Source: Escallonia rubra (Eukaryota > Streptophyta > Magnoliopsida > Escalloniales > Escalloniaceae). From it: 64,000 bases of DNA. How positions within the stretch are numbered: the first letter of the stretch is position 1; each line of letters starts with the position of its first letter. The position numbers and the translations under genes were made by a program. Positions 8,345 to 56,469 of the stretch are shown in pieces. The notes beneath the pieces are model-generated. The model did no database searches. It was not told where the DNA came from and worked only from the letters and a program-made list of their open reading frames with translations. The stretch lies in assembly GCA_033065855.1 (NCBI GenBank), contig JAVXUO010002775.1, positions 1-64,000 on the forward strand, read 5' to 3'.

Positions 8345-8548
8345 GCCGCAGACAAGGAATGATCAAGAACTAATGCATACCAAGAGTAGAATCTCATCCA
8401 TTTACCAGTATTCTTTCATAGCACAATTACCTAAAGAACAAGGCAACGCAGCCTTACAAAGTGTTGATTGCAGAGCAGAATGAAGTTTACCAAAAAGCAA
8501 AAATGGTTCTGGTCCATTGGATCAGTTCAAAAAGCATGAACATTTGTC

Positions 8549-9468
8549 GCCGGAAGGTGGATGTGGCGTCGCCGTGTCTTCACCGGAAATTGGACGGCGT
8601 GAGTGGCCGCTGGTCGATGGAAGGCACGCGGTGTACAGTGAGATTGAGTCTCGAACTTTCACCGGCGGTAGATAAGACGCCGGAAGATTCACCGGTGTCG
8701 TCAGTGTACCGTGAAGCTTCACCGGGAACGTCGTCGGCGTAAGGCTTGGTAGATGCGTCTGCCAGGATCTCCACCGGTGGATGTGGCATCGCGGTGGACA
8801 GCGTGAGGAGCCGCTGGTCGATGGAAAGCACGCCAGTGTTGGTAGATGCGTCGCCGTCCGATCCTTATGGGTGGCGGTGACGTCGCTGTGTCGCCGTGGA
8901 CGGCGTGAGGAGCCGTCCGATCGATGGAAGGCACGCCGAAAGATCCCAGTGGGTGGCGGTGACGGCGCTGTGTCTTCGCCGGGAATGTCGCCGGCGTAAG
9001 GAACTGGAGAGAGAGTGTGAGTTGGTGCCGGTAGAGTAAATGAGGGGCCGTCCGATCGATGGAAGGCACGCCGGAAGATCCCGGTGGGTGGCGGTGACGG
9101 CGCTGTGTCTTCGCCGGGAATGTCGCCGGCGTAAGGAACTGGAGAGAGAGTGTGAGTTGGTGCCGGTAGAGTAAATGAGGGGCCGTCCGATCGATGGAAG
9201 GCACGCCGGAAGATCCCGGTGGGTGGCGGTGACGGCGCTGTGTCTTCGTCGGAAATGTCGCCAGCGTAAGGGACTTGAGATAGAGTGTGAGTTGGTGCCG
9301 GCAGAGTAAATGAGGGGAGGGAGAGTAACTGAGGAGAATTAAGTTTTTTAAAGGCTGGGTGACGTGGCATCATCTAGACCCTTCCCTCCCCCCCATAAGG
9401 ATCGGACGGCTGTGACAGGGTCACAGCACCACTGCTGTAACCTTAGCCACAACAGTGGATCGGGATCC
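8549..9468 (-). repeat. Right long TIR of the MULE
   Basis: About 920 bp, the inverted partner of 1846-2632. It carries three tandem copies of the 135-bp unit (about 8913-9047, 9048-9182 and 9183-9317), one more than the left arm. The third copy (9183-9317) differs at a few positions from the middle one. Confidence 0.9.
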
Positions 9469-16754: not shown

Positions 16755-18018
16755 TGTTAACCCTACGGTTATTTAACCGAGGATTATAGTTGGTTTTGAT
16801 GATAAACTAACATTGACAATTATGTTGTCTAACATGCATTGGGTTGATGAAGAAATAGGTACAATCTTATACTCATGCAAACGGACATCTAGACGAGCAA
16901 ATCGATCAAAGACACTCAACGGATCGCTCCAAAGAAGAACTTCGTAGATCGTATTTTACAATACTTTTATTTCCCTCTTTGTAAACTAGATATAGAGAGA
17001 TGATCGTTACGATGACTGTATACCTAGAACTTGCCCATAGGTTTTCCTTGCATGCATAAAAGTTTTTCATTCTTTAAAAACTAGGAAACTGCATTTTCTG
17101 GAATGCAGTCGACTTCATTGGAATGCAGTCGACTGCAAGTTGGGCAGTGAGGTATTACAGTCGACTGCATTGGAATGCAGTCAACTGCAATACTTCCAGT
17201 AGCCTATTACAGTCGACTGCATTGGATTACAGTCGACTGTAAGTTGGAAATTTTGAATTTCCAACGGCTACTTTGGGATTACAGTCGACTGTATTTACCG
17301 TTTGGCGCATTTAATGCTCTACCTAACTCCAAACGGTCATATTAATTCCTAACTCTATAAATACTCATCTTGGGCTTAGTTTTGATTCATCAATTGCATT
17401 CAAAGCTCTCTTATCTTTCATATTCTCAAAGATCAAAGCAATTGTTCAATCTCTCTTGGTTTTCATTGTTTTTTTATCCATTTCAAGAGAGCATTTAGTG
17501 TGACCTTACACTTGAGAGATATACACTTTCATAAAGTCATCATACACTCATCTCTCTTGTTCTAGTGCTTAAAATTGTACTCATCTACTTATTGAGAGTG
17601 AAATCTTGTACACAGTTCTTCATCTAAAGGTTCTTGTATCAAAGCTTGGGGTTGTCAAGCTTTGGAGCTTTGGGATTGTCAAAGCTTGTTCTTGATGTGG
17701 GCATAGCATCAAGGGATTGTAAGAGGTTCGATCTTGACCCGTAAGGAAGATCATACTAGTGGATTCTAGGGCCTTTCAAAGGACTTCCTCGAAGGGGTGG
17801 ACGTAGGCTTGAGGGTATATCAAGCTGAACCATGTAAATCTCCTTGTCAAGTATCTCTAAACCCTTCTCTCTTTACATTATCGTTTTACATTTGTGTTGA
17901 GATTGGTTAGTTTGCTTATTTAAGTTATTGAGATTGAGGTTTGTTGTTTGTTAATTTTTAAAGTAGTCTTAAAACCCTATTCACCCCCCCCCCCTCTAGG
18001 GTTATCTTTTTGGTTTCA
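16755..18018 (+). mobile_element. Solo LTR, about 1.26 kb (probably Copia)
   Basis: Starts tgttaaccctacggtta and ends with a C-run, ctctagggttatc and ggtttca. It is flanked by near-identical 5-mers, accct (16750-16754) and acccc (18019-18023). A second copy in opposite orientation lies at 46980-48277 with a perfect duplication, which confirms the ends. No internal region is attached, so this is a solo LTR left by recombination. The C-rich 3' end is typical of plant Copia LTRs. A cluster at about 17100-17295 holds several copies of the palindrome TGCAGTCGACTGCA and near variants. Confidence 0.85.
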
Positions 18019-19726: not shown

Positions 19727-21303
19727 TGTAATATCCTGAACCTAGGGTTAGCCGGTTATAATTACTTTAGCGACACTTTCTATCAGTGATGCTCCTTTGA
19801 ATCTTTAGCGACAATTTTTATGAGCGGTATCTTTTGGGACCTTTAGCAGATATTTTTATGATTTTAACTTACGATGACGAAGCTGGTTATAGGGTAATTT
19901 ATAGCAATATATTTACAACAGATTAAATGAGTGATGTTCTTTGGAGTATTTAGAGATGAGGTGCATGAGTAATATCATTAGCAATCTTTGATAATAACCA
20001 TTAGTTATTGATAAAAATAGGCACAATAGGGAAATAAATGAAATTGAAGGGGATGACTTTGAACATTTAAATTGCAAATTGGGTCATTGCTTAAATATAG
20101 ATATAATGAAAAAAAAAAGGATATAGAACAGGGAGAGAAGACACACAAAGAGAATGGCAAGGCAGCCGGCCCTAGAACGAGCGGTGCCCCATCTCTCGGA
20201 CCAGCTGAGCCACCGATGACGGCGACACCAAAGGGCCACCGGGGGACGACGTCGGAATAGCCACCAGCCACCCACCCAAGGGCTGCCGTCGCTAAGCCCA
20301 ATGTCCTGTATCTACGAAGGCAGCGCCGGCGTCCTTTGCTGTCGATGGGCATCAACCAGCCATGACCGGTAACCACCGGCTGTTTCATCGATGACCACCG
20401 ACACAGAGAGAGAGACTGGGCGGGGTGGTCGGTAGGTTAATCGGCAGTGGCGATGCCGATTTAATTGACGATTGAAGATTGCGGAAAGTGGTGTTTTAGG
20501 CGATCGAGATTGGTGGTCGATGTGCCGGCGGTGACGTCGCGCCAATGGTGACGGCGACGATGTTGGTGATACGCCAGTTTGTGGCGATCGCAGAAGTTGG
20601 TTCGTGGCTGGTGACGGTGGGGCAGCGGTGGTGGTGTTCTAGTTTTGGGTGCACTGGCAACCGTGGTGCTTAGGAGATCGCACTACGATGGAGAAGGGAG
20701 ATTAGGGTGGCTGATATTTTTGTGCCGGCGGTTCTGCTGTGAGATTGGCGGTGATTGCAGTGGAGCCATGGGTTTGTGGTGATGATGGTGGACAACAGCG
20801 ATACGGCGGTTTGACACGGCGGTAGAGAAGGTTTGTTACTTCTGTTATGTTACCTCCGGTGAGTTGGGTAGTGGAACGGTGATCGGAAGTGTGGCCGATT
20901 AGTGGTAATTGGTGATTGGAGGTGCAACTAAGGTGGAGCTTAGCGGTTGCGACGGTTATAACACTTAATATTATTTGATGTAATGAATTAAGACTAAGAA
21001 TTTTGGTAGCACTCTGTATGAATTATGAAATGGGTTGTTGTGGGTGCCTTTGCTCTTGGTGAATGAATTGGAATGAACGAGATGGTTATTTGGGTGCGGA
21101 ATCATAGCAACGATGGTGGTGGGCGTGCGTGCATGTTTGTATATGCGTGAATGTGTAATATGTACAAGGTGTATATACAGAGTGTGTCGGTAGGTAACAG
21201 GGTACAATAGTTTTGTGTGCGCGCACCGGTAGGTGTACGTGTTTCATGTGTTTAGGCAAGTGTGTATATTGTGTAGGCGTGGTTGTGGCTGGACGATAAC
21301 GTG
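19727..21303 (+). repeat. 5' LTR, first part
   Basis: Corresponds to 34600-36018 of the 3' LTR. It carries about 160 bp more than that copy, mainly a stretch near 20035-20150. It is interrupted after acgtg (21299-21303) by the nested Gypsy element. Confidence 0.9.
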
Positions 21304-22800
21304 TGTTCCCAACCCATCTTGGTCAGACCCAATGGCCCGCTAGGGGTCCCACTACACACGAACACGTCAACATTGTCAACAGTCAATTTTCCAGCGCATC
21401 AAACCGGTCAGTGCCCGCACACCCAAAACACGTGTTCTTCTCGCTTCACGTGCTTGTGCATTGACGTCACTCGCGCTAGCGCAATCATCACACCCAGATC
21501 ACCCAAACACCTTACCAAAATGTCGACCGACGGCGCAACCAGAGCAACAGGGTCAACGGGCAAAGGCCTTGGCCAACCCCATGGGGTCGGCCTCGGCCTC
21601 ACCCACGACCATGGGGTCGGCCTCGGCCTCACCCAAGGTCATGGGGTCGGCCTCGGCCTCCCATGGGGGTTTGGCCTTGGCCTTTCCTCCCCGGTTCTTC
21701 ACTCTTCGCGCAAAGTCCTTTCTGCACTTTTTTCGCTTTGCGCGTTTCGTACATGACTCTGGCACCTGGTTCATCACATGGGTACGATTCTTGGTAGCAT
21801 GCTCGTCGCAACACAACTTTTGGATTCATCATTGCTTATCAAAACACCCACCGACGGTGCGCCCGAAGTTCGCAAAAGGAGAAATTGCATGGGGCTCCGA
21901 AAATGGAATTTGGCCATTTGGCCTTGGCCAACCACAGGGGGTCGGCCTCGGCCTTCCCCAGGCCTAGGGGTCGGCCTCGGCCTCCATGAGGGGTTGGCCT
22001 TGGCCATTTTCCCCCGGTGGTTCACTCCTCCGCGCAAACCCCTTTTTTCGCACTCCTTTCGCTTCGTACGCTTTGCGCATGACTTTGACGCTTCGTTCGT
22101 CATATGGTTACGATTCGCGTCGACACGCTCGTCGTAACGCAACTTTCGGATTTGCCTTTGCTTATCAAAACACCTACCGTCGGCGCGCCCGAAGTTCACC
22201 GAAGGGGGGAGTGGCCTTGGCCTCCCTTCATGGGAGTTGGCCTTTTACCTTGGCCACCCCCTAGGGTCGGCCTCGGCCTCACCAAGGGGTCGGCCTCGGC
22301 CTCCCCAGGGGTGGTGGCCTTGGCCTTCCCCCCAATGTTTGGCCTATGGCCTTCCATTCTGCGCGCACTTGTTTGCCCGAGCCTTTGCACCTCCGCGATG
22401 TTTACGGACGTTCGTACATCAACCTCCCGACGTCCGTCGTCCATCAACTTCGCGACGTCCGTCGCCCGGGACCGCACGCCGCTCCCGCGATGCCCGTCAC
22501 CCAAAGTCGCGCGTTACAGCCGAATGACCCGTCACCGACGACCGCATGCCATCATCCCCAACTTTGTCACTACTACATATTGCATTCATTATCTTGTTAT
22601 GACACCCACACTTAGCTCACATCCTGTCTTCGAGACACCGACGCGCGCCCTCGCGCCATTCTCATGATGCGTGCCCCGTCACCAAATATTGCTCCGCGAC
22701 GTTCGTCGCCGCGCCCTCGCGCCATTCTCATGATACGTGCCCCGGCACCAAATATTGCTCCGCGACGTTCGTCGCCGCGCCCTCGCGCCATTCTCATGAA
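21304..22800 (+). repeat. 5' LTR (partial) of the PMD-bearing Gypsy
   Basis: Nearly identical to 28387-29890. It contains at least seven ggtcggcctcggcct-type motifs and ends within the 66-bp tandem repeat array, of which about two copies remain. It lacks the promoter part seen in the 3' LTR. Confidence 0.88.
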
Positions 22801-22965
22801 CATGTACGCGCCAACATGTCAGCCCCCAAGTTCACACCGAATTGGGAAGGACCACTTCAAGTGCATGAAGCCAGAGACAACGGCTCTTACCTCCTGCTCA
22901 ACACGGAAGACGGACAAATCACGGCACCTATCAATGGTCGCTATTTGAAGAAGTTTTATGCATGA
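22801..22965 (+). pseudogene. C-terminal tail of integrase/pol
   Basis: Encodes SAPKFTPNWEGPLQVHEAR and continues to LKKFYA followed by a stop at about 22963. This is the small C-terminal domain of a Ty3/Gypsy integrase, which in intact relatives binds DNA. It matches the pol end of the older element (about 57031-57187) closely. Only this tail remains, so it cannot be functional. It shows that the PMD gene lies just downstream of pol. Confidence 0.85.
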
Positions 22966-23405
22966 CCCACAGCGGAGTGTTCCCCCAGCCCTACCCGACC
23001 AAAGCTTAGAACATTTACACAACATTTTTTTGTATATGCACACATGTTCATGACTTGTAACTTTTGTTGTTTATTACAAGTTCTTGCTTTCTTCATGTAA
23101 TGGCATTTTGGCCCAAATACTATCAATGCAAAGATCATTCACTCGCCTCAACTACTGTATGTAACGCACTCTTTCATTTACACATCGTTCACTAAGTCGC
23201 TTGCTATGGGCGGGGAAGGGGGAACCACAACGGGAGGACACCACATGCAAGATATACGAGTACATCAAAAGCTAAGCATCACCTCACAACAAACACAGGT
23301 ACAAAATAACCATGCAACTGCTATATCAGTATCAACAAAATGCATACAGGTCACAGGTTTGTAGGTTGCTTCAGACCAATGACTACTAGCAAAATGAAAA
23401 GTACA
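22966..23405. other. Spacer between pol end and PMD gene
   Basis: A non-coding stretch between two convergent genes, conserved with 57190-57640 of the older element. It contains the purine-rich motif gcggggaaggggga at about 23211-23224, which has a counterpart at about 57442. This could be an internal polypurine tract or a relic of the 3' end that existed before the PMD gene was added. Confidence 0.45.
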
Positions 23406-26400
23406 TCACATATAGCGTAAAGAAGTAAGCAGTGCACCAACAGTATCAGAAGTATACGACTCCAGAGTCTGCCGCTGCACCTGTAAGTCGGACCATCTCT
23501 GCTCTAACTCGGCCCGCTGTCTCTCTATCTCTACCTGTCGAGCCTCCGCCTCGCTAAGCCGGGCCCGTATATCAGAAACCTCTCGCGTCACATCTGTCAA
23601 CGCTGCATCAAACATACGCCTACGGCCGTGACACGCCACCTCCTGCGCTCCTACCACAGTCAGTCCAGCCATGGCCTCAACACTCGGCCCTCTACAATGG
23701 ACATAGTCGGACAGCCACTCCAACTGGAAGCCAAAAGCTACGAACGGCTCGAGCTCTAACATAAACTCTGACCTCATCTCTGAACTCCAAGTCGAGGTCG
23801 ACACCGTACTAAGTGTCGCCAACCAGTCCACAAGGGCGGAAAACATCGCCTTGAACAATGCCATGCCCCGCATGGTAATAGAGCCCTCAAATGTCTGGGG
23901 TTGTCTCGCCCTAATCATCTCCAACCGCTGGACCACGACATCCGACAACCCGAGGCCCTCCCAGGACATACCGTCTGCCTGCCCGACTGAAGACCCACCA
24001 CTAGCAGCATCAACCCCTGTCGCCCTACCACCCACTGATCTCACGCCAACGGTGGCAGCATGCATCGCCAACAGAGCATCACCCGCATCGGCGGCCGACC
24101 CCGACAATGTATCCGCTATCGGCGCCACAACAGACGAATCAGGTACACCGCGTTGTGGCAACGAATCTCTAACCACCGCATGTGCGGTCGGTAACCCGGC
24201 ATGTGCCCACCAATCATCACCCTCAAACGTGTGACCCATCGGGCCATCGAATACATCCTCGACCAAGACAGGTGACGGGCTCGAATGACCAACTGGCACG
24301 ACCGGCTCCACAACATATGTTGCTGTCTGCTCCAGGTGACTGACTGGCTCCACAATGTAGGCCGCTGCCTGCTCTACCACCGTGGCCTCCCCGAAGGCCT
24401 CACTATCCATCGGCCCCCCCTCATAGGCCGGCTCGGCCTCCATCTCCTCGACCTCATCGGCCGCATCTACATCTGCCTCCCCATCTTCCTCAGCTGCCTC
24501 AAGATCCATCCCCTCAGTATCATCAGTAACAGCCTCGGCATACTCTGTGGTATCGTCTGACTCCACGTCAATGGCACCACCATCATCATCAAACTCCTGT
24601 CAAAACAAAAAAAAGGGGGAGAGAACCGAGCATTAGAGAACACTTAACATGATAATTGGCAACTGTACAACGAAAGCAAAGCAGTACACTAACCTCGGAG
24701 TCACACTCCTCCAGCACCTCTCGCGACCTCTTCGGCCTACGTCCACCACCTGTCGAAGGACCTGCGCCTGTCCGCTGTGCACCCGCCATCTGCCTACTCT
24801 CAATGACGAAATGGGACCTTTGCCAGCGCCCGGCACCCTCGGACCACCTGCTGCTGCCGGCGCCCGTGCCGGCACCGGTTCATCTAATACACCTGTAAGT
24901 AGTACCGACATGCCGTTCTGCCTCGCGACCTGCGCCGTAACAAGTCCCAGTCCTCTGTCCCCCGCAAAGACATCGACCTCCGGCCTGTCGGATGGCTCTT
25001 GCGACAACCACTCCGACCATGTCGCCAGTACCCGATCCCACCATCGCGCATACTCAACCGTCGCGACTCCCGTCGATAGCGTCCCAGGCCTCCTCCACTC
25101 CTCTGTCGGTACCGGCCACTTCTGCGCCCACTTTGAGATTGTATACCCAAAAGCCTTCCTCACCTCCCACGCCCTCGTATAGCCACATGGGGGCTCTAAA
25201 TCATAACCAAAGCTCGAGGACAATCGATCGGGGCTATATCTCGCCACATAATATCTGTTCTCAGCCGGCTTCCCGCCATCATCAGTCAATACGGGCAGCC
25301 ACCCTGGAAAGTACGCCACTAGTAAGGCCACCGCCGTGTCCGTCAGCTCATCTCGACCGTGTAGTCGCACCATAGTGTCCTGCAGATCCATCCATGGAGG
25401 AGTACCGTACGAATAATGCATGCCGGTATACGCACGGAGAACGCACTCATCTCGATCGTCAAAAATGTCTGCCAAATCACGCCCGGGCTTCTTCCCGCCT
25501 GCCCAGGCATATACTCGGCCACCTGCGTACCAAGCCGCAACCTCACGTGACTTGCCCGGCCGAGTCACCGTAATCATCCGTGGCGACGGATGTACTAAAG
25601 GAAGATCACGAGGCCGATAATCCATATAGACCTCGAATAGATACCGCTGCAAGAACATCCAGTCTACGTACGTCGTCACCTGATAGCGTCCGTACGACCT
25701 CTGTACATCATTGGCAAACTGATCTAGACGAGAGTACTGCGTGCCTAAGTAAATGGGGGCCAGCCCGACGCGCCCCCCACCAGCCATACGTACAGCCAAC
25801 TTGAATACCCTCAGGGACACGCCATCCTCCGGCGTCCCCTCAAATACAAACCTACAAGCATAAGAGCATACAATGTCTATCATAACCTTCTCACCCTATT
25901 CTGAACGTAAACTCTGTTGCATGGCAATATGACTACACTATCTTTCCGACACGTTTTTTTCTCTAAGTATAAAAATTTAGCATTCTACGCATACAAGAAC
26001 AATGGAAGTACAGCATGTAACAATACTAAAAGGAAGACATTATAAGCACGTACCTCGACAAAAACATGATAAGAAACCCCGCTAGCTCGTATCTCTTGTC
26101 CTTATAGCAAGGACCCGCGCGAAAATTGCTCACCGACGCAGACTTCTGCCCGGGTAACGCGGTCGCCGTACCATAGAAGTATTTGAGCCACCCGCTGTAC
26201 GTACCCTTGCGATTGCTCCTTATCAACGAGGCAAACCCCTGCAGTTCCTTTACCGTCAACCGTTCCGCCGCCGTCAACTCCAACTCACAAGCATTCTCCG
26301 TACCGTGCATGGGCAACCCCGTCAACATCATCACGTCGAGAAGCGTTGGCCCAATCTCCCCAAACGCCGTGATGAACGTATGCGTCTGCGAACTCCATCT

Positions 26401-27048
26401 CGAAAGCAACAACGCCAAGCCCTTAAAGTCCCTCACCGGCTCAATCACTTTGAACGTCGCCTCTATCGCAGACACCAATCCCAACGCCTCCAATCTCTCC
26501 CCCCAACCCGACGCCTCCAACATATACATGCACCAAAAATTCCACCCCACCGGCATGGTACTATGGCCCTTGAACATCACCGGCGACCACGGCACATCCA
26601 ATCGTTCCACCAACAAACCCGGCATGTACCTCGGCGACATCACCGGAGCGACCCCCCCGCTCGGCGCACGAACATACGGCGACAGAACCATCGGACTCTC
26701 CGCCATCGACGACGCACAGAAAGGACCCAAAAACACATCCGCACCCACTCGCTGGCCAAGCTCCCTCCAAAGCTCCTTGGGTGGGCATCCGGGCACCGCC
26801 CCCTTCGACGTCAACAAAATATTGCTGTGGCTTGGCGTTGCATCAAAGCTCCTCGCCCTACCAAGGAAACTCAACGGCACTTCCTCTTCTTCAAACGGCG
26901 TGACGTCGTCATCATCAACCATGTCGCCCGGCGCTAACGTTGATCGCCCGCTAGCTCCGCCCCGCCGTCGCACACTTTGCTTCTTCCGTGTCTTTTTCGG
27001 CAATCCACCAACATTCCCCTTTGCGCCGTGAGAAACATCTCCGCACAC
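23406..27048 (-). CDS. Plant mobile domain (PMD) protein, four exons, antisense in Gypsy element
   Basis: Predicted exons on the minus strand: 27048-26054, 25851-24906, 24789-24694 and 24596-23406. Each intron starts GT and ends AG, and the phases agree (995, 946, 96 and 1191 bases), giving 1075 aa without a break. The N-terminus has a basic stretch (KKTRKKQSVRRR, residues 18-29) that could be a nuclear signal, then an acidic run (residues 44-57). The PMD signature includes RWSSQTHTF (217-225) and LLDVMMLTGLP (236-246). Exon 2 continues the domain with YLGTQYSRLDQF and WYAGGRVYAWAGGKKPG. Exon 3 adds RRPKRSREVLEE. Exon 4 is acidic, then globular, and ends in an Arg/Glu-rich coiled coil (about 1004-1075). 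PMD proteins such as Arabidopsis MAIN and MAIL1 act in the nucleus in gene expression and transposon silencing. The function of this copy is unknown. Confidence is high for the family and moderate for the exact model. Confidence 0.85.
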
Positions 27049-28386
27049 GCCGTGCCTCCGATCGGCCTCGACCTCGGCGTCCTCGGCCCCTCGGCCTCGG
27101 CCTCGGCCTCGGCGTCGTCAGCCTCGGCCTCGGCCTCGGCCTCGGACCGCGCGGCCTCGGCCCGCGCCTCCCTCTCTCTCCTCCTTTCTTCCCTCTCCCT
27201 CTTCCCTCCTTCTTTCTCCCCCTCTTTCTCCTTCCCCTTCCCTCCTCCTTCCTTCCTCTTCTTTCCCCCTCCTCCTTCCTCCCTCTCCCTTCCCCTCTCC
27301 CTCCTTTCCTCTCCCCTTCCCCTCCCCCTTCTCCCTCTTCCCCTCCCCTTCCTCTCCCCCCTCCACCGCCCGCGCCGCGCCCGCGCCGGACCTCGGCCTC
27401 GGCCTCGGCCTCGTGGCCTTGGTCGGCCTCGGCCTCGCGGCCTTGGTCGGCCTCGGCCACTTGGTCGGTCGGCCCTTGTCGCCATCCCCCATCGCCTCTT
27501 CCCTTCACCCCATAGCCACGCCCTCCTCTCCTTCCCCCACACTCAGCCTCGGCCCGGCGGTGTGCCTCGGCCGCCGTCGCGGTTGGCCCATGGCCACCCC
27601 TTCCCCCACTTGCCCCTCCTCTCTTACCTTGTTGCATCCTCTTGGCTTCTTGTGATGTTCTCACTCTCATGGGTCTTCAAGAACCAACTCCTCTTCTTCT
27701 TCTTCTTCCTCTCCTTTCTTTCTCTCCTCTCTCTTTAGTTTGGTTAAGTCTTTCTTTCTCTCTCTCTTTAGTTTGGTTAAGTCTTTCTTTCTCTCCTCTC
27801 TCTTTAGTTTGGTTAAGTCTTTCTTTCTCTCTCTCCAAAGCCTTGAAAGACTTCCCACCTAACTTTCCCCCCCAAATCCATCACATCAATTTAAATTCCA
27901 AGTTTCCCCCCAAAATCCCTAACAACTCTTTCAGCGTTCCACTCCTTAACGCCAACGTTTTTCAAAGCGTTGTTATTTTAGCAAAACAACATTATCATTT
28001 CACATTCATAACCTAACATCGCTACCAAAATTCTTCGCGCAACCCACCCATCTTCCGCACTTTTTTTGTCGCGCTTTTTTTCTTTCTTTCACGCTAACGC
28101 CAACGGACAGGCGTGTTATATTTTGTTGTTGCTATTTCTTGTTTTCTCGAGTTCACCGTTACGCTAAGATCGTTAGCATCTTTTTTATTTTATTTTCAAA
28201 AAAAAAAATTATTATTATTTCGAAACTTTGCATATTCCAAGGGAATTTACGCTCCCCCGTGTTCCACGTTACTATAGCGATGTTTCCTCCAAATTCGAGC
28301 CCGGCATTTTTTTCATCGATTAATGCTTATGCGTGCGGCGCCCGCTCGGGTTTTCCCCTCCGCGCACACCGCACGCAGGGGGCTTA
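27049..28386 (-). promoter_or_regulatory. Pyrimidine-rich upstream region of the PMD gene
   Basis: Lies upstream of the PMD start codon and ends at the 3' LTR. On the plus strand it contains runs of ggcctcgg (about 27062-27170 and 27389-27470), a long CT tract (about 27170-27365) and three tandem copies of about 35 bp built on ctttagtttggttaagtctttctttctc (about 27735-27840). On the gene's strand these are GA-rich tracts, which are common in plant core promoters and leaders. That it acts as the PMD promoter is inferred from position. The long frames on both strands here are low-complexity artefacts. Confidence 0.5.
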
Positions 28387-29724
28387 TGTTCCCAACCCAT
28401 CTTGGTCAGACCCAATGGCCCGCTAGGGGTCCCACTACACACGAACACGTCAACATTGTCAACAGTCAATTTTCCAGCGCATCAAACCGGTCAGTGCCCG
28501 CACACCCAAAACACGTGTTCTTCTCGCTTCACGTGCTTGTGCATTGACGTCACTCGCGCTAGCGCAATCGTCACACCCAGATCACCCAAACACCTTACCA
28601 AAATGTCGACCGACGGCGCAACCGGAGCAACAGGGTCAACGGGCAAAGGCCTTGGCCAACCCCATGGGGTCGGCCTCGGCCTCACCCACGACCATGGGGT
28701 CGGCCTCGGCCTCACCCAAGGTCATGGGTCGGCCTCGGCCTCCCATGGGGGTTTGGCCTTGGCCTTTCCTCCCCGGTTCTTCACTCTTCGCGCAAAGTCC
28801 TTTCTGCACTTTTTTCGCTTTGCGCGTTTCGTACATGACTCTGGCACCTGGTTCATCACATGGGTACGATTCTTGGTAGCATGCTCGTCGCAACACAACT
28901 TTCGGATTCATCATTGCTTAGCAAAACACCCACCGACGGTGCGCCCGAAGTTCGCAAAAGGAGAAATTGCATGGGGCTCCGAAAATGGAATTTGGCCATT
29001 TGGCCTTGGCCAACCACAGGGGGTCGGCCTCGGCCTTCCCCAGGCCTAGGGGTCGGCCTCGGCCTCCATGAGGGGTTGGCCTTGGCCATTTTCCCCCGGT
29101 GGTTCACTCCTCCGCGCAAACCCCTTTTTTCGCACTCCTTTCGCTTCGTACGCTTTGCGCATGACTTTGACGCTTCGTTCGTCATATGGTTACGATTCGC
29201 GTCGACACGCTCGTCGTAACGCAACTTTCGGATTTGCCTTTGCTTATCAAAACACCTATCGTCGGCGCGCCCGAAGTTCACCGAAGGGGGGAGTGGCCTT
29301 GGCCTCCCTTCATGGGAGTTGGCCTTTTACCTTGGCCACCCCCTAGGGTCGGCCTCGGCCTCACCAAGGGGTCGGCCTCGGCCTCCCCAGGGGTGGTGGC
29401 CTTGGCCTTCCCCCCAATGTTTGGCCTATGGCCTTCCATTCTGCGCGCACTTGTTTGCCCGAGCCTTTGCACCTCCGCGATGTTTACGGACGTTCGTACA
29501 TCAACCTCCCGACGTCCGTCGTCCATCAACTTCGCGACGTCCGTCGCCCGGGACCGCACGCCGCTCCCGCGATGCCCGTCACCCAAAGTCGCGCGTTACA
29601 GCCGAATGACCCGTCACCGACGACCGCATGCCATCATCCCCAACTTTGTCACTACTACATATTGCATTCATTATCTTGTTATGACACCCACACTTAGCTC
29701 ACATCCTGTCTTCGAGACACCGAC

Positions 29725-30000
29725 GCGCGCCCTCGCGCCATTCTCATGATGTGTGCCCCGTCACCAAATATTGCTCCGCGACGTTCGTCGCCGCGCCCTC
29801 GCGCCATTCTCATGATACGTGCCCCGACACCAAATATTGCTCCGCGACGTTCGTCGCCGCGCCCTCGCGCCATTCTCATGATACGTGCCCCGGCACCAAA
29901 TATTGCTCCGCGACGTTCGTCGCCGCGCCCTTGCGCCATTCTCATGATACGTGCCCCGGCACCAAGTATTGCTTCGCGACGATCGTCGCCGCACCACTTT
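29725..30000 (+). repeat. 66-bp tandem array in LTR, about 4 copies
   Basis: Units recur at 29738, 29804, 29870 and 29936 (position of ccattctcatgat). The 5' LTR retains copies at 22656, 22722 and 22788. A diverged form (ccataacatgtgcccc, ctcgtgacggtcatcgc) exists in the older element at about 50930-51100. Confidence 0.92.
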
Positions 30001-30080
30001 CACAACACGTGCCCCAGGCACCAGGTATTGTCTCGTGCTATAAGCACCGCGCTCATGCGCCACAATCATGTTGCATACTA

Positions 30081-30570
30081 CCGGGATGGGCTCACAACCT
30101 TATAGCCATCGCCGTCTCAATCAAAATGGGGGCTTCGGCCTCGTACCGGGATGGGCTCACAACCTTATAGCCATCGCCGTCTCAATCAAAATGGGGGCTT
30201 CGGCCTCGTACCGGGATGGGCTCACAACCTTATAGCCATCGCCGTCTCAATCAAAATGGGGGCTTCGGCCTCGTACCGGGATGGGCTCACAACCTTATAG
30301 CCATCGCCGTCTCAATCAAAATGGGGGCTTCGGCCTCGTACCGGGATGGGCTCACAACCTTATAGCCATCGCCGTCTCAATCAAAATGGGGGCTTCGGCT
30401 TCGTACCGGGATGGGCTCACAACCTTATAGCCATCGCCGTCTCAATCAAAATGGGGGCTTCGGCCTCGTACCGGGATGGGCTCACAACCTTATAGCCATC
30501 GCCGTCTCAATCAAAATGGGGGCTTCGGCCTCGTACCGGGATGGGCTCACAACCTCATAGCCATCGCCGT
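30081..30570 (+). repeat. 65-bp tandem array in LTR, about 7.5 copies
   Basis: The unit starts ccgggatgggctcacaacc, with starts at 30081, 30146, 30211, 30276, 30341, 30406, 30471 and 30536. Copies are nearly identical, differing at single bases, so the expansion is recent. No spacers are present. Confidence 0.95.
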
Positions 30571-31037
30571 CACGGTCGCAAGGGGTTTCGGTACAAGGAC
30601 CCCTCGCCACAGACTCGGAGCACTGAGCTGTGACCATGTCCACTCATGTTACTATCGATCTTCGACACCACCAGGGCAATGACCCCCGGGTCACTCCGGG
30701 ACGGGAGCAGGTCCTTGGAGGGCATCGCGCCTAGTCCGCCTGGCAGTTGGCTACAAGGGTAACCCTCACCACTGTCAGGTTATTTGCGCGTCTCTTGACG
30801 CACCTCATGGGATTCAGTAAGGGCTTGGATTGGTGGCTGGGGCAACGGGCTTACTCTGATCATGCTACCGCGGTGTGGTCAGTCTTCTCAGACAGGTAGA
30901 GCGACGCTGTGCGAGGCAGGCAACGCGAATTTGGGAACCGGCAGTCCAACGGAGAACCGGTATTCTGGGACCCCCTGGTGACGTGTCACTCCCAGGGGAC
31001 GACATGTGGCACTTTATGACATAACCACCATGTTTCC

Positions 31038-31045
31038 TATAAATA
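31038..31045 (+). promoter_or_regulatory. LTR TATA box
   Basis: TATAAATA, in the context cctataaatagtg, lies about 340 bp before the LTR end. The same context is conserved at 51858-51865 in the older relative, supporting it as the retrotransposon core promoter. Confidence 0.65.
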
Positions 31046-31390
31046 GTGAACTTTACAACTCAAAAAGGGACTTTTGGCTTTTCTTACAAAAATCACTTTC
31101 TCACTCTAAGAATTTGGGAGCTCTTGGATTCTAGTGAGAGAAACGTAACTTTGGACCGTAGCATTGGACCCTGACTCGGACCCTGACTCGGACTATCGAC
31201 TGCCGGCCCTGTTCGTCTTAGCTTTGCCTTCGCAGCACTGCCATTCCTCACGGCCCGTCTGAGAAGCCTTGCCCTCAGCCCTTACTCCATCTGCCCTGTC
31301 TCTCACTCGGCATACTTGGAAGCTGACACGGACTGCAGCCTTTGTGGCACCTCCACGTAAACACGAACCCATTTCATTGGCATCAACGTG

Positions 31391-32859
31391 TAACAGGAGT
31401 ACATGTGGGACACTATTGCATGAGGAGTGCGGTTGTGTATAGTGTAGCAATATGACATGCTCGATGGGTTAATGACTTCAAGTTAGTTGAGAGAGGCTCG
31501 AAAACAATGATGAAATGCCGAGAATGGCATGGTGAACTGAGCACGATTTTGGAAGGGTTGTGTAGCGGGCGGTCAGATGCGGCGTCGGAGTTGTTTGAGG
31601 AAATAACCAACATGAATCATCAATGATGCCTTCGGGTCATAGTAAAGCTGGGAATATGGAGATAAAAAGAATGGCCCTAACCGTTCTTTTAGCTAGATGT
31701 AGCAGCGAGATTGTTGCTCCAGAGACTTCGATGCGGGAAGTGCGTAGCGTCATGTAAGTGACCCTTTGATTCAATTAGTATTTTTGATATATGAAGTATA
31801 TCTTTATCTACTGTTAAAAAAAAATGTGTTGTTTATCAGCATTGACCGTTTTGATTACGTTTAGCTGCTCTGGCTTAAATTGTTGGAAAACTTTTGGTGA
31901 TTTTATTTCTCATTAAAACCGGACCAGCATGTAATGACGTCTTGCTTGGAAGTCGGATTTGAAATAATTAGTGCAAGTGAGACGTCTTGGTATTTGACAT
32001 TTTTGTGAATATTGAAGAGCTTGAAAACTATCAAAATGGGTGTGAGAATGGTTTAGCATCAATTGATGAGTAATTGTATTTACGATGAACCAAAAGATCT
32101 TATTGTTGATTCGATTGCTGTGCCCCATATCCACGGGGGAAAGTGGATTCCGGGTCCTGGTCAACGGGACCATACGTTGACGCACAGTACTGTTGCATCG
32201 TGGTTCGCCCTTGCGTCCACAATATTGTTTATCCCGGGTGGAGGAGGGATTCTGGGTCCTAGTCAGTGGGACCATACGCTGACCGCATCATATTGTTTGA
32301 GTTGAGATTGGGATGGAACTGTTTGTCGTAAGGTTTTGTGCTAATGATTTTATACCTCAGTTTTGTTTCATGTACTATATTTCATTTACCGGATGAATAC
32401 TTTATTGTTTCAGATTTAAATGTTTCTACGATTTAAAGTGAATTATTTTCTGGCATGCCATGGTCCACCTGGTTGAATCATTGGTTACTTACTGAGCTTG
32501 TGGAAGCTCATCCCTTACTTATCATTTCAGGTTGAAAGTAAGGTGATGTTGAGGAGCATAAGAAGGACAATATGGCGCGGAGCTCCGGAGACTGCATAGA
32601 ATAAGTCGCTAAGTTTTTAGATTGTTGGTTTAGTTTTAGTTATTGATATATCAGAGTTATGAAGAATTGTAGCATGAGTGTTGTATTCAAATAAAGATAT
32701 GAAAATGTAATTAAGGTTTGTAGAAGTTTTAAATTCCGCTGCAGATCGTATGTTGTTTTAGTGAGTAAGGCCTAGCAGAGCCCTTGGTTGGAGTCTACTG
32801 GGTCTGCGGGCGGTCACGTGCCTAGCACACGGGCTTACCCGTGGGTTTGGGTCGTGACA
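31391..32859 (+). repeat. 5' LTR, second part
   Basis: Continues the LTR after the nested element and corresponds to 36019-37485. It ends in gtcgtgaca, just before the primer site. Confidence 0.9.
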
Positions 32860-34599: not shown

Positions 34600-37485
34600 T
34601 GTAATATCCTGAACCTAGGGTTAGCCGGTTATAATTACTTTAGCGACACTTTCTATCAGTGATGCTCCTTTGAATCTTTAGCAGATATTTTTATGATTTT
34701 AACTTACGATGACGAAGCTGGTTATAGGGTAATTTATAGCAATATATTTACAACAGATTAAATGAGTGATGTTCTTTGGAGTATTTAGAGATGAGGTGCA
34801 TGAGTAATATCATTAGCAATCTTTGATAATAACCATTAGTTATTGATAAAAATAGGCACAAAGAGAATGGCAAGGCAGCCGGCCCCAGAACGAGCGGCGA
34901 ACCATCTCTCGGACCAGCTGAGCCACCGATGACGGCGACACCAAAGGGCCACCGGGGGACGACGTCGGAATAGCCACCAGCCACCCACCCAAGGGCTGCC
35001 GTCGCTAAGCCCAATGTCCTGTATCTACGAAGGCAGCGCCGGCGTCCTTTGCTGTCGATGGGCATCAACCAGCCATGACCGGTAACCACCGGCTGTTTCA
35101 TCGATGACCACCGACACAGAGAGAGAGAGACTGGGCGGGGTGGTCGGTAGGTTAATCGGCAGTGGCGATGCCGATTTAATTGACGATTGAAGATTGCAGA
35201 AAGTGGTGTTTTAGGCGATCGGGATTGGTGGTCGATGTGCCGGTGGTGACCTCGCGCCAATGGTGACGGCGGCGATGTTGGTGATACGCCAGTTTGTGGC
35301 GATCGCAGAAGTTGGTTCGTGGCTGGTGACGGTGGGGCAGCGGTGGTGGTGTTCTAGTTTTGGGTGCACTGGCAACCGTGGTGCTTAGGAGATCGCACTA
35401 CGATGGAGAAGGGAGATTAGGGTGGCTGATATTTTTGTGCCGGCGGTTCTGCTGTGAGATTGGCGGTGATTGCAGTGGAGCCATGGGTTTGTGGTGATGA
35501 TGGTGGACAACAGCGATACGGCGGTTTGACACGGCGGTAGAGAAGGTTTGTTACTTCTGTTATGTTACCTCCGGTGAGTTGGGTAGTGGAACGGTGATCG
35601 GAAGTGTGGCCGATTAGTGGTAATTGGTGATTGGAGGTGCAACTAAGGTGGAGCTTAGCGGTTGCGACGGTTATAACACTTAATATTATTTGATGTAATG
35701 AATTAAGACTAAGAATTTTGGTAGCACTCTGTATGAATTATGAAATGGGTTGTTGTGGGTGCCTTTGCTCTTGGTGAATGAATTGGAATGAACGAGATGG
35801 TTATTTGGGTGCGGAATCATAGCAACGATGGTGGTGGGCGTGCGTGCATGTTTGTATATGCGTGAATGTGTAATATGTACAAGGTGTATATACAGAGTGT
35901 GTCGGTAGGTAACAGGGTACAATAGTTTTGTGTGCGCGCACCGGTAGGTGTACGTGTTTCATGTGTTTAGGCAAGTGTGTATATTGTGTAGGCGTGGTTG
36001 TGGCTGGACGATAACGTGTAACAGGAGTACATGTGGGACACTATTGCATGAGGAGTGCGGTTGTGTATAGTGTAGCAATATGACATGCTCGATGGGTTAA
36101 TGACTTCAAGTTAGTTGAGAGAGGCTCGAAAACAATGATGAAATGCCGAGAATGGCATGGTGAACTGAGCACGATTTTGGAAGGGTTGTGTAGCGGGCGG
36201 TCAGATGCGGCGTCGGAGTTGTTTGAGGAAATAACCAACATGAATCATCAATGATGCCTTCGGGTCATAGTAAAGCTGGGAATATGGAGATAAAAAGAAT
36301 GGCCCTAACCGTTCTTTTAGCTAGATGTAGCAGCGAGATTGTTGCTCCAGAGACTTCGATGCGGGAAGTGCGTAGCGTCAAGTAAGTGACCCTTTGATTC
36401 AATTAGTATTTTTGATATATGAAGTATATCTTTATCTACTGTTAAAAAAAATGTGTTGTTTATCAGCATTGACCGTTTTGATTACGTTTAGCTGCTCTGG
36501 CTTAAATTGTTGGAAAACTTTTGGTGATTTTATTTCTCATTAAAACCGGACCAGCATGTAATGACGTCTTGCTTGGAAGTCGGATTTGAAATAATTAGTG
36601 CAAGTGAGACGTCTTGGTATTTGACATTTTTGTGAATATTGAAGAGCTTGAAAACTATCAAAATGGGTGTGAGAATGGTTTAGCATCAATTGATGAGTAA
36701 TTGTATTTACGATGAACCAAAAGATCTTATTGTTGATTCGATTGCTGTGCCCCATATCCACGGGGGAAAGTGGATTCCGGGTCCTGGTCAACGGGACCAT
36801 ACGTTGACGCACAGTACTGTTGCATCGTGGTTCGCCCTTGCGTCCACAATATTGTTTATCCCGGGTGGAGGAGGGATTCTGGGTCCTAGTCAGTGGGACC
36901 ATACGCTGACCGCAGCATATTGTTTGAGTTGAGATTGGGATGGAACTGTTTGTCGTAAGGTTTTGTGCTAATGATTTTATACCTCAGTTTTGTTTCATGT
37001 ACTATATTTCATTTACCGGATGAATACTTTATTGTTTCAGATTCAAATGTTACTACGATTTAAAGTGAATTATTTTCTGGCATGCCATGGTCCACCTGGT
37101 TGAATCATTGGTTACTTACTGAGCTTGTGGAAGCTCATCCCTTACTTATCATTTCAGGTTGAAGTAAGGTGATGTTGAGGAGCATAAGAAGGACAATATG
37201 GCGCGGAGCTCCGGAGACTGCATAGAATAAGTCGCTAAGTTTTTAGATTGTTGGTTTAGTTTTAGTTATTGATATATCAGAGTTATGAAGAATTGTAGCA
37301 TGAGTGTTGTATTCAAATAAAGATATGAAAATGTAATTAAGGTTTGTAGAAGTTTTAAATTCCGCTGCATATCGTATTTAGTTTTAGTGAGTAAGGCCTG
37401 GCAAAGCCCTTGGTTAGAGTCCATTGGGTCTGAGGCCGGTCACGTGCCTAGCACATGAGCTTAGCCGTAGGTTTGGGTCGTGACA
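34600..37485 (+). repeat. 3' LTR of the LARD-like element
   Basis: Starts tgtaatatcctgaacc and ends gtgaca. It is a full-length, uninterrupted reference for the split 5' LTR. A diverged relative occurs in reverse orientation at 60935-63567. Confidence 0.92.
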
Positions 37486-46599: not shown

Positions 46600-49050
46600 A
46601 ATCACTGCACTCCTTAGGGAATTCATCGTTGTATTTGCTTGGTCATATAGTGATATGCCCAGTATAGACCCATCGGTCATGAAACACCACCTACCTACCC
46701 TACCCGAAGCAAAGTTGTCAAGCAGAAGCTCCATAAGTTGATGTCAAAGTGGTCCCTTAAGGTCAAGGATGAGGTGATGAAGTTACTCCACATTTGATTT
46801 ATCAGAGCGATTGAGTACCCTACCTGGCTCGCAAACATTGTACCCGTCCTCAAGCCTTCTAGTCAAGTCAGAATGTGTGTTGATTCTCAGGACCTTAACC
46901 GAGCTTTCCCTAAGAATGACTTTCATCTGCCCATCACTGACATGATCATACACAATATAGCCCAACATGAATTGGTATCTGAAACCAAAAAGATAACCCT
47001 AGAGGGGGGTGGGGTTTTAAGACTACTTTAAAAATTAACAAGTAATCACTATAAACTTAGAGAAACTATGAATAACACTTAAAGAGCTTCAAGCAACAAA
47101 CCTCAAACACAATATTTCAAATAAGCAAACTAACCAATCTCATCACAAGTATAAAACAATAATGTAAAGAGAGAAGGGTTTAGAGATACTTGACGCTTGA
47201 GATTTAGATGGTTCGGCTTGAATTACCCTCAAGCCTACGTCCACCCCTTCAAGGAAGTCCCTTGAAAGGCCTTAGAATCCACTAGTATGATCTTCCTTAC
47301 GGGTCAAGATCGAACCTCTTACAATCCCTTGATGCTATACCCACATCAAGAACAAGCTTTGACAATCCCAAAGCTCCAAAGCTTGACAACCCCAAGCTTT
47401 GATACAAGAAACTTTAGATGAAGAATTGTGTACAAAGATTCACTCTCAAGAAGTAGATGAGTACAAGTTTAAGCTCTAGAACAAGAGAGATAAGTGTATG
47501 ATGACTTATGAAAGTGTATATCTCTCAAATGTAAGCTCACAATAAATGCTTTCTTGAATTGGATGAGAAAACAATGAAAACCAAGAGAGATTGAACAATT
47601 GCTTTGATCTTTGAGTATATGCAAGATAAGAGAGCTTTGAATGCAATTGATGAATCAAAACTATGCCCAAGATGAGTATATATAGGTGTGGGAATAAATA
47701 TGATCGTTTAGAATTAGGTAGGGCATTTATTGAGCCAAACGGTAAACGCAGTCGACTGCATTGCACCATCGCAGTTGACTGTATTCCCAAAAGTAGCCGT
47801 TGGAAATTTAAAATTTTTAATTGCAGTCGACTGTAATAGACTACTGGAAGTGTTGCATTGGAATGCAGTCGACTGTAATACCTCACCGCCCAACATGCAG
47901 TCGACTGCATTCCAATGCAGTCGACCGTATTTCTGAAAATGCAGTTTTTCCTATTTTTCAAAGAATGAAAAGGTTTATGCATGCAAGGGAAACCTATGGG
48001 CAAATTCTAGGTCACAGTCATCGATACGATCAACTCTCTATGTCTAGTTATAAATAACGGAATAAACGCAATAATAAAAAGCAATCGAAGTATTCTATCT
48101 TGATGCGTTCCGTTGAGTGTCTTTGAACGATTTGCTTGTCTAATTGTCCGTTTGCATGAGTATGAGATTGTACCGATTTGCTTCATCAACTCAATGCATG
48201 TTAGACAACATAATCATCAATGTTAGTTATCATCAAAATCAAATATAATCCTAGGTTAAATAACCGTAGGGTTAACAGTATCTTTCCAAGATTTATTTCC
48301 AGGGTACAACCAGATAAAAAAGGCTCTTGAAGGCTAGGAGAAGACAGCCTTAACCACCCCTTGGGGTACCTTTTGTTACAGCTTGGTGCCCTTCGGTTTG
48401 AAGAATGCCATAACTATATACCAGCGAGCCGCTACCACCCTAATCCATGACATGATTCATAAGGAGGTAAAAGTGTATGTAAACGATGTGATCATCAAGT
48501 CAAAGAAAAGGGAGGATCATTGCAAAATGCAAAGAAAATACTTTAGAGATTAAGGCAGTACAAAGTGAGGCTAAATCCGCAGAAGTGTGTTTGGGGTTAT
48601 ACCCAAGAAGTTGCTAGGTATTATGGTGAGCAAGAGAAGAATAGAGGTGGACCCTAACAAGATCAAAGCCATAGTTGAGATACCCCCACCAAAGACGGAG
48701 AAGGAGATTCGAGGGTTCTTGGCAGAATCTAATACGTTAGCCGGTTCATATCCCTACTGACCATGATCTGTGAATATCTGCTCAAACTATTGAAGAAGGA
48801 TTCGACAAAAGAGTGAAAACCATTGTGTCAAGAAGCCTTCAACAAGATCAAACAGTACCTTAGCAACCCCTCATTCCTAAGCTTGCCGATACCCGGTATA
48901 GCACAGCGGAAGCCATGTTAGCCCAGCATCTGGAGAATTCTTTGGTTGAGAGAGCTATTTATTATGTCAGTAAGAAGCTGACCCAATGAGAGGTGAATTA
49001 CTCAGCTTTAGAGAAGACGTTTGTATCTCTGGTTTGGGTGTAGCCCAAAA
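46600..49050 (+). pseudogene. RT/RNase H remnants split by a solo LTR
   Basis: Before the solo LTR (about 46600-46979) the translation has VPVLKPSSQVRMCVDSQDLN, the start of a Gypsy reverse transcriptase. After it (about 48290-48780) palm and thumb pieces follow. At about 48890-49040 there is an RNase H-like YYVSKKLTQ motif. Multiple breaks; a fossil. Confidence 0.7.
46980..48277 (-). mobile_element. Solo LTR, second copy of the 16.8-kb family
   Basis: Reverse-oriented copy of the LTR at 16755-18018. On the plus strand it starts tgaaaccaaaaagataacc and ends gtagggttaaca. It has a perfect 5-bp duplication gtatc (46975-46979 and 48278-48282). It sits inside the RT region of the decayed Gypsy and is younger than it. 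It carries the same clustered TGCAGTCGACTGCA-like palindromes (about 47745-47930). Confidence 0.92.
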
Positions 49051-49952: not shown

Positions 49953-52227
49953 TGTTCCCAACCTATCTTGGTCGGACCCAGGGGCCCACTAGGGGTCCTA
50001 TTCGTACGAACACGTCGACATATTCAACGGTCAATTTTTCAACGCATCGAGCCGGTCAAAGTGCGCACGCCCAAGTCACGTGCGTTTTTCGCTCCGCATG
50101 CCTCGTGCGCGACTTAGGAGCCATTTATTTCACATCAGCATGACTCACGGTAGCACGTACGTCACGCCGCGACCACCGAACACCGTTTCACCCAAAAACA
50201 TCGGCTGACAGCATAACCGGAGACACGGGGTCAAGGGGTTAAGGCCTTGACCAACCTCAGGGGGTCGGCCTCGGCCTCCCCCAAGGGGCTGGCCTTAGCC
50301 TTCTCCCCAAGGTTTGGCCTTAGGCCTTCCCCAAGTCACCCATTCCCTACGCAATGTCCATTTTTGCACGTTCTTCGCTATGTACGCCTCATGTGTGACT
50401 TTGGCACCTTGTTCATTACGTGGGTGCGACTCACGGCAACACGATCGTCATACCTGGACTACCTAACTCCTTGCTGTCCACAAAAACATCAACTGTCGGC
50501 GTGCCTGAAACCCACCAAAAAAGGGAAGTGGCCTGGGCCTCCCCTTTGAGGGAACGCCTTGGCCTTGGCCACCCCCTAGGGTCGGCCTCGGCCTCCCTTG
50601 GGGGTTGGCCTTGGCCTTCCCCCAAAATTAAGCATTCGGCCTCCCCTTCCACGCGCACTTGTCTTCACAGCGTTTTGCGTCTTCATAATGCTCACCAATG
50701 CTCGCACACCAACCTCGCGACGTTCGTCATCCGCGGCCGCGCACCGCCTCTGCAATGCCCGTCTCCCAAAGTCGCGCGCTACCCCCGAGGGACCCTTCTC
50801 TGATGGCCGCATAACACTATCACCAACTTTGTCATTACTAAAGATAGCATTTATCATTTTGGTACAACATACACACTTGGCTCACGCCCCGTCTACAGGA
50901 CACTCGACGCTAGCCCGTGCGCGCGCCTCCGCGATGGTCGTCGCCGCGCCCACTTCCATAACATGTGCCCCCGACACTAGGTTTTATCTCGTGACGGTCA
51001 TCGCTACGCCCGTGCACCACTTCCATAACATGTGCCCCGGCACCAGGTATTCTCTCACGACGGTCATCGCCGCGCCCATGCGCCATAATCATGTCTCGTA
51101 CTGCGCCACAATCAATGTCTCATGCCAGTGGCATCGCGCCCATGTGCCACAATCATGTCTCGTGCTGTAGGCACCGCGCCCATGTGCCACAATCAATGTC
51201 TCATGTCATTGGCATCGCGCCCACGTGCCATAATCATGTTACATGCCTCTGGGCACCACACTCATTCACCACACCATGCGCCCCCGCCATGGACGTGGAA
51301 CATGCTTCGATCCACTCTTCAGAGTGTGCAGCATTTTGAGGGACTCCGCTCGTAGTGCTCCGGCACGAGGACCTTTCTTAGCGGGATAGACTCGTTAGCA
51401 CAAAGCTATCACCGCCTGGGGTGACTTGCATGACCCTAGGCACTGAGTTGTGACCATGTCCACTCACGTTACTGGTACTCATCGGTGCCCCCAGGACGAT
51501 GACCCCGGGTCACTCCGGGACGGGAGCAGGTCTTTGGAGGGCATCGCGCCTAGTCCGCCTGGCATTCGGCTACATGGGCAACCTTCACCGCTGTCAGGTT
51601 CTCTACGCATCTCTTGACACACCTTTATGGGATTCAGTTAGCGCTTGGACCGGTGGCTGGGGCAACGGGCTTACTCTGATCATGCTGTCATGGTGTGGTC
51701 AGTCTTCTCAGACAGGTCGAGCGATGCTATGTGGGGCAGGTAGCGCGAATTTGGGATCCGGCAGTCCAATCGAGAACCGATATTTTTGGACCCCCTAGTG
51801 ACGTGTCACTCCCAGGGGACGACATGTGGCACTTGACGACACAGGCACACTGTTTCCTATAAATAGTGGACTTTATAACTTATTCAAGGACTTTTGGCTT
51901 ATGCTTACAAAATCACTTTCTCACTCTAGAACTTAAGAGCTCTTGGATTCTAGAGAGAGAAACACAATTGGACATAATCTTGGACATAACATCGGACCGT
52001 AGCATTGGACCCTGACTTGGACCTTGACTTGAACTGTCGACTGTCGGACCTGTTCGTCTCAGCCTTGTCTCCGCAGCACTGCCATCCCTCACAGCCTGTC
52101 TAGGAAACCTTGCTCTCTGCCCTTACTCCACCCTCACTGTCTCTCACTTAGTACATCTGGAAGCTGACTTGGACTACAGCCTTTGTGGCACCTCCACGTA
52201 GGTACGAACCCACTTTCATTGGCATCA
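49953..52227 (+). repeat. 5' LTR of the older PMD-bearing Gypsy
   Basis: 2275 bp, ending tttcattggcatca. Shares with 28387-31385 the start, the ggcctcggcc motifs (about 50262-50620), the ggtgcatcgc/tccgcctggc block, the TATA region (51858-51865) and the end. It lacks the 65-bp array. Confidence 0.88.
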
Positions 52228-52230
52228 TTT

Positions 52231-52248
52231 TGGCGACTCCGCTGGGGA
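52231..52248 (+). promoter_or_regulatory. Primer binding site
   Basis: tggcgactccgctgggga lies three bases after the LTR end. This primer-site type is characteristic of plant Tat/Ogre Gypsy elements. Confidence 0.8.
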
Positions 52249-52319
52249 GGTGAGCATCGTATTGCAGTCTGCCTGTCTGCCACACTTAGGCACCATGCCT
52301 GTGCAACGGAGAGCTACGA

Positions 52320-55122: not shown

Positions 55123-55479
55123 CAGTGTGTGGGGGCTCTAGTGGTCTGTCATCTGACCCCCTTGACCCTGACCCGCCCATGGAGACTGAATGGTGCTACA
55201 GCCGAGCATTGCCCGCCAGACCCCGAACTCACCCCTGGCACTGCCCGCCTTGCTATGAAGATGGCCCTTGACCACAGGCTGAAGACCTTAAAGAAATCAA
55301 CATGGCTGACCCGGGCGAGGAACCCTGACTTACGTACATTGGCACAAAGTTTACCCCGGGCTGAAGAGAGGAATTGGTTACCCTCATTCACGAATATCGC
55401 GATGTATTGGCATGGAGTTACAATGAGATGCCTGGGTTGGACCCTGCCTTGGTGACACACCATCTCAATATTACTACCG

Positions 55480-56450: not shown

Positions 56451-56469
56451 ACGAAGAGCCACGGGAGGA

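Follow-up and report, generated by a model that had tools for sequence, protein, structure and literature searches.

Does a plant retrotransposon that carries a plant mobile domain (PMD) gene in antisense keep that gene as a working part of its family, and how is the gene passed among the copies? The question arises from a 64,000-nt stretch of Escallonia rubra DNA (JAVXUO010002775.1, forward strand), called here the window, in which an element at 21304-31385, the window copy, has an antisense PMD gene lying between a remnant of pol and the 3' LTR.

The window copy and its element family

The bounds of the window copy are exact to the base, as it starts with TGTTCCC (21304) and ends with GGCATCA (31385), and the flanking sequence carries on both sides the unstranded target site duplication ACGTG (21299-21303 and 31386-31390), of the 5-bp Ogre type, which upholds the preliminary description of an LTR retrotransposon at 21304-31385. 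By repeat and LTR comparison, the element has, on the forward strand, a 5' LTR truncated inside a 66-bp tandem repeat (21304-22799) and a 3' LTR of 2,999 bp (28387-31385) in which units of 66 bp and of 65 bp form tandem arrays. The LTR pair is 99.5% identical (21304-22799 against 28387-29881), with 5 differences in 1,339 sites compared (K2P 0.0037), giving an age of about 0.14 million years at a mutation rate of 1.3e-8 per site per year. The insertion point lies within the 5' LTR of another element (20144-21304 and 31385-32859, compared with 34857-37485), whose LTR pair has a K2P of 0.008 and 0.012 in its two parts; from this nesting and these distances, the window copy is the younger of the two. 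Within its 3' LTR, the 65-bp unit is repeated 7.6 times at 99% (30079-30571) and adjoins 66-bp repeats (29726-29992), an array without counterpart in the truncated 5' LTR.

Most of gag-pol is missing, as had been claimed: the truncated 5' LTR is joined straight to the end of pol at 22799-22801 (forward strand), and the pol remnant that follows (22801-22965, forward strand) consists of the last codons and the stop, continuous with a long pol frame in the relatives. In a search of the 566-Mb genome, with 40 of 1,127 candidates scored, this junction was spanned by one of 42 matches, the window copy itself, so the loss looks private to it. A shared gag-pol-less lineage spreading the PMD gene was considered and rejected, as the junction was found once among the candidates so scored. 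The further idea of a cargo kept while the engine was lost had to be given up for this copy: the deletion is private, the gene of the window copy is itself broken, and in 12 of 20 related copies the fetched part of pol has an uninterrupted frame as far as the end of pol.

The primer site of the window copy is deleted, and the primer test rests on a second, decayed relative in the window (49953-60924, forward strand), found by repeat and profile searches. Its 5' LTR runs from 49953, and its 18-base primer site (52231-52248) matches the 3' end of the host tRNA-Arg(ACG) gene plus CCA, the 3' end that is added to tRNA-Arg. Profiles also located a piece of RT (55658-56308) and a weak piece of integrase, below the cut-off (56317-56949), followed by broken antisense PMD remnants with many stops to 60924. 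Elsewhere in the window, there are an inverted pair of 1.2-kb repeats at 87% (16755-17950 and 47090-48277) and shorter repeats in inverted pairs, about 95% alike and containing direct repeats of 135 bp (1846-2633 and 8546-9468).

The region lacking in the window copy can be read in a relative, L013, where the pol domains follow the order RVT_1 (16-174), RNaseH (239-367), RVT_3 (435-545) and rve (821-917). In excerpts of the survey of Neumann et al., a second RNase H between RNase H and integrase is described for Ogre and Retand in angiosperms, and a PMD extra ORF is reported in 57% of Ogre elements (PMC6317226); excerpts of another paper describe a tRNA-Arg primer site for Ogre (PMC9289625). 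The present family shares with Ogre this second RNase H, the tRNA-Arg primer site, the 5-bp target site duplication and the PMD extra ORF, and it differs from Ogre, as described in the excerpts of PMC6317226, in that the gene is multi-exon and occurs as old exchangeable types on near-identical pol. From the pol order, the primer site and the PMD ORF, the element is best called Ogre-like, and the window copy a dead and recent insertion from a high-copy family of Ty3/gypsy retrotransposons of the Tat lineage. This kind of element is known, as are PMD genes in Ogre/Tat elements.

Structure and state of the antisense gene

In the 566-Mb genome, 2,398 candidates for the E1 frame of the gene yielded 112 scored matches, of which 43 have an identity of at least 85%, 38 one of 69-84% and 31 one of 59-68%. 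Types A, B and C were set beforehand by exon-1 identity to the window copy, and these identity classes are equated with the types only within the copies read. Of the 112 matches, 31 copies supplied the gene sequences, namely the window copy, 20 A copies, which are the next-best-scoring 20 matches and were fetched with their flanks, four B copies and six C copies. The position and orientation of the gene are constant, antisense between the pol end and LTR sequence, in all 20 close copies, and deletions relative to the window copy are near zero in exons and commoner in introns and in an upstream GGCC-rich stretch. Compared with 21304-22464, the LTRs of L009-L028 are mostly about 83-94% identical, against about 93-97% for the gene and pol end, so the LTR of the close A copies has its own history or a faster rate.

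The claim of an antisense plant mobile domain gene was borne out by profile search, PF10536 scoring 52.5 bits against a cut-off of 34.9 on the E1 frame of the window copy alone (26026-27117, antisense), 31 bits, under that cut-off, on the E2 frame alone (24633-25895), and 93.5 bits (E 2e-26) when the exons of a naturally open relative are spliced. PF10536 was the sole domain that profile search found in the antisense protein of one relative, where TRP28 gave no match. A PDB sequence search with E1 gave no match up to E 1, and PADLOC found nothing.

The best gene model, taken from the sequences of the relatives, has four predicted exons on the reverse strand. A putative E0 (27628-27670), supported by copy comparison in types A and B and not in C, would supply an ATG and 14 codons before a GTAAG donor, and is followed by a putative intron 1 of GGCC/CCTC-rich simple repeats, variable in length (27039-27627). 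E1 (26054-27038), placed by profile and copies and open in the window copy, holds a basic NLS-like stretch, recognized by eye, and the first part of the PMD; E2 (24694-25851) holds the second PMD part; and E3 (23406-24596) runs through an acidic stretch and a C-terminal coiled-coil-like segment, again judged by eye, to the PMD stop. Intron 2 (25852-26053), which has indels inside, keeps its donor and acceptor, the E1/E2 splice sites, in 31 of the 31 copies read. Intron 3 (24597-24693), GT..AG, marks the region where type-B and type-C genes stop matching; apart from L036, where this part is missing, all copies keep the intron 3 donor, and in some type-C copies the E3 acceptor is not cleanly readable. 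The E0 donor GT is present in all 25 copies of types A and B; five of the six C copies lack it there and L035 is ambiguous, and an in-frame ATG stands directly before E1 in five of six C copies; the 5' end of the model is provisional.

The preliminary description had four exons without an internal stop over 1075 codons. The spliced antisense gene stands as a prediction, and the open frame does not, as E2 has lost its frame in the window copy, where it measures 1,158 nt and the spliced frame runs into its first stop near codon 771. That open frame must have been obtained through an additional intron, which would remove the troublesome stretch at about 24780-24910, leave the gene of the window copy intact and make the cargo alone preserved. 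GT and AG dinucleotides are present there, and E1, E2 up to that stretch, and E3 of the window copy are each open. However, the stretch is coding in the relatives, as 18 of 20 have an E2 of 1,168 nt that reads directly through it; in the B and C copies L033, L029, L035 and L037, it is crossed by a single protein match; and the length of the window copy within it is unlike that of any of the 20, which makes the intact gene with its extra intron hardly credible. Among the relatives, about 1,130 open codons are kept in nine of 20, and the gene is broken in the other 11 under the best model, L028, with its first stop at 1,119, being counted as broken. Judged by its sequence, the gene of the window copy is broken, with an assembly error at that place as a possibility.

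Regarding known relatives of the gene, the element PMDs form one clade, with seven further PMDs from this genome falling outside it (100/99, on a tree with long branches). In this and in being borne by a Gypsy element, they would be in line with the clades PMD-A1/A2 of Ikeda et al. (2017), described in excerpts of PMC5418596. The antisense position between pol and the 3' LTR is shared with the aORFs of Grande, RIRE2 and Retand (aORF-3R; TRP28), unlike which the present gene encodes a PMD and has no TRP28 match; excerpts of the respective papers propose a regulatory role for antisense aORFs (PMC11963269) and describe an own promoter and antisense transcription for gene23 of Grande (PMC7264820). 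PF10536 is also shared with Arabidopsis MAIN and MAIL1, which, according to excerpts of PMC7156037, work with PP7L in gene regulation and TE silencing, a silencing role that is not transferable to element PMDs. A close MAIN/MAIL-like origin was considered and is not supported, as two element PMDs have 25-27% identity over at least 200 residues to two full-length PMD matches of contig C922, and a MAIN orthologue was not identified among the genome PMDs. That contig carries four full-length PMD matches within 19 kb, and the genome (G000) holds several further high-copy PMD repeat classes with open frames of 468, 596 and 685 aa and many identical scores.

Selection on the gene

For variants common to at least two of the 20 A copies, pN/pS was 0.29 (0.16-0.57) in E1, 0.23 (0.14-0.39) in E2, 0.54 (0.32-0.85) in E3 and 0.12 (0.07-0.17) in pol, the exon values agreeing with the earlier claim that the family keeps the gene; for singletons in the same copies, it was 0.34, 0.49, 0.50 and 0.26, respectively. 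The upper limits of dN/dS for E1 and E2 were 0.15-0.39 in seven copy pairs compared, with a downward bias because the four B and six C copies were all chosen with an open exon-1 match. For E3, these limits were 0.29-0.32 between A and C-type E3, 0.50 for the A-like E3 of L031, and 0.65 and 0.88 in pairs of the same E3 type. In this part of the copies, a dN/dS near 1 was not seen for E1 and E2, and E3 appears weakly constrained. The copies read indicate that the PMD gene is under purifying selection family-wide, with weak constraint on E3.

An antisense frame could also be a passive relic, that is, a functionless fragment of a captured host gene which is open since the copies are young. The broken state of 11 of the 20 related A copies and of the window copy under the best model is in line with this, as is the weak constraint on E3, but the constraint persists over silent distances from 0.4 to above 1, with the dN/dS limits of E1 and E2 given above, the E1/E2 splice sites are kept across divergent types, and deletions are few in exons and more frequent in introns, so a passive relic seems highly improbable. 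Purifying selection argues instead that the spliced antisense gene has a function. The literature found, seen as excerpts, gives no established role for the PMD genes of plant Gypsy elements, and in the excerpts of PMC6317226, a large survey, the authors ask whether the extra ORFs of SIRE have any function.

Exchange of the gene between copies

A pol stretch of about 1,050 codons was fetched, and the full comparison was made for one B copy (L030, broken) and one C copy (L029). Between L013 (A) and L029, the silent divergence (dS) of pol is 0.024 (0.014-0.036), against 1.17, 2.06 and 1.37 in E1, E2 and E3 of the PMD gene, silent divergences above 1 being saturated. Between L013 and L030, pol differs by 0.065 (0.046-0.086), against 0.38 and 0.41 in E1 and E2 and a saturated 1.46 in E3. 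The last exon departs from the rest of the gene also between L032 (B) and L035 (C), where dS is 0.053 in E3 against 1.22 in E1 and 2.16 in E2, both saturated; a C-type E3 is found in the B copies L030, L032 and L033, and an A-like E3 (0.34) in the B copy L031. Pol pieces of eight further copies were compared against L013: two B copies, C1372 and C2287, are 100% identical to it (801/801 bp), and the other B copies reach 99.3% (C349) and 94.8% (C1256); the C copies C623 and C1060 reach 99.1% and 98.8%, C2003 has 95.5 and 93.4% in two rearranged parts, and in C3005 no pol match to L013 was found.

The places where the types part from each other are also sharp. Comparing A with B or C, an identity of about 0.9 gives way to one of about 0.65 at 23400-23425, next to the PMD stop codon, and comparing B with C, it drops in or next to intron 3, L033 having a different boundary inside E3. 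On the other side of the gene, L030, the sole B copy read that far, regains within-A identity from about 28050 into the LTR, and this A-like sequence on both flanks implies that a gene-sized block moved at least in L030. In type C (L029), the difference extends beyond the gene, as the LTR is also more diverged (about 80-85% identity).

In the pol tree, where seven rows have under half of the columns and C2003 has a long branch, a single clade of type A is rejected (p-AU 0.00025) and the B copies are scattered; a single clade of type C is not rejected (p-AU 0.73), and type C may thus reflect one exchange. The gene trees included the window copy, seven of the 20 A, the four B and five of the six C copies (L036 being left out), and the second element of the window. 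With E1 and E2, types A, B and C form separate clades (100, 97 and 100), and the PMD of the second element is a branch of its own outside A and B. With E3, three of the four B copies group with C (100), and a single B clade is rejected at p-AU 0.0005. This E3 grouping is rejected on E1 and E2 with a p-AU of 2.6e-8, a value weakened by the grouping having been named after the dS table was inspected, which leaves the dS contrast unaffected. From these comparisons, the copies read have on young, near-identical pol at least three PMD gene types of ancient divergence, and the gene appears to have been exchanged as a block and, separately, by its last exon; the block in one type-B copy would comprise the gene and about 380 bp upstream.

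The likely mechanism is template switching as in retroviruses, by which reverse transcriptase would pass between co-packaged RNAs of different family members, and the antisense orientation would allow introns and a promoter of the gene's own to survive the RNA stage. For ONSEN in Arabidopsis, family members have been described to recombine pairwise, which was likened to recombinant retroviruses (excerpts of PMC5668417), and envelope recombination is reported in endogenous retroviruses (PMC10536682). Those cases are similar in that modules are swapped between family members, and differ in that what moves here is a PMD gene in antisense, or just its last exon.

What maintained the old types is a separate matter, and ordinary recombination with a sweep of pol is one account, in which a fit young pol spread into older lineages with differing PMD genes, without selection for variety. 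Recombination of this kind is documented in plants, as in the ONSEN excerpts (PMC5668417); the scattering of B pols among A pols and the possible single clade of C pols point the same way, and homology stops sharply where the sequences differ, as expected from homology-driven switching. However, the gene of L030 has A-like sequence on both flanks, as read in this one B copy, and diverged genes are still common together, at 43, 38 and 31 of 112 matches, classes that equal A, B and C only for the copies read. The pol sweep is a serious possibility, which we would place a little short of an even chance. It is also possible, though we hold this tentatively and with some doubt, that the PMD gene is a multi-type, exchangeable effector cassette, whose old variants would be kept by selection for variety, for instance to counter host silencing factors, and would move onto a spreading pol entire or as the last exon alone.

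Regarding the gene product, a basic stretch near the start of E1 is present in all rows compared except the decayed second element of the window (partial E1), 34-43% of the first 90 residues of E3 are D or E, and the protein end is charged and coiled-coil-like, a label given by eye, wherever it is covered. The basic start, the acidic part of E3 and the coiled-coil-like end would suit a nuclear protein-binding regulator, and the product, with its NLS-like start, PMD, acidic stretch and coiled-coil-like end, may be a nuclear regulator that helps the expression of the element itself or acts against host silencing. The role of silencing modulator or decoy suggested in the preliminary description is conjectural, and an anti-silencing idea is in print for MULE-borne PMDs, as excerpted from PMC5418596. 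Taken jointly, a dead and recent Ogre-like copy, a selected antisense PMD gene, its exchange as a block or by the last exon, template switching and a nuclear regulator form a reading that we consider quite probable.

Among the matches listed from open-licence PMC papers, exchange of a PMD or antisense ORF is described in no title or abstract start. If the PMD gene is a swappable module with old variants side by side, retrotransposons would have an accessory gene whose evolution resembles that of viral surface or counter-defence genes, and it would offer a handle on a possible conflict between host PMD silencing proteins and the PMDs of the elements.
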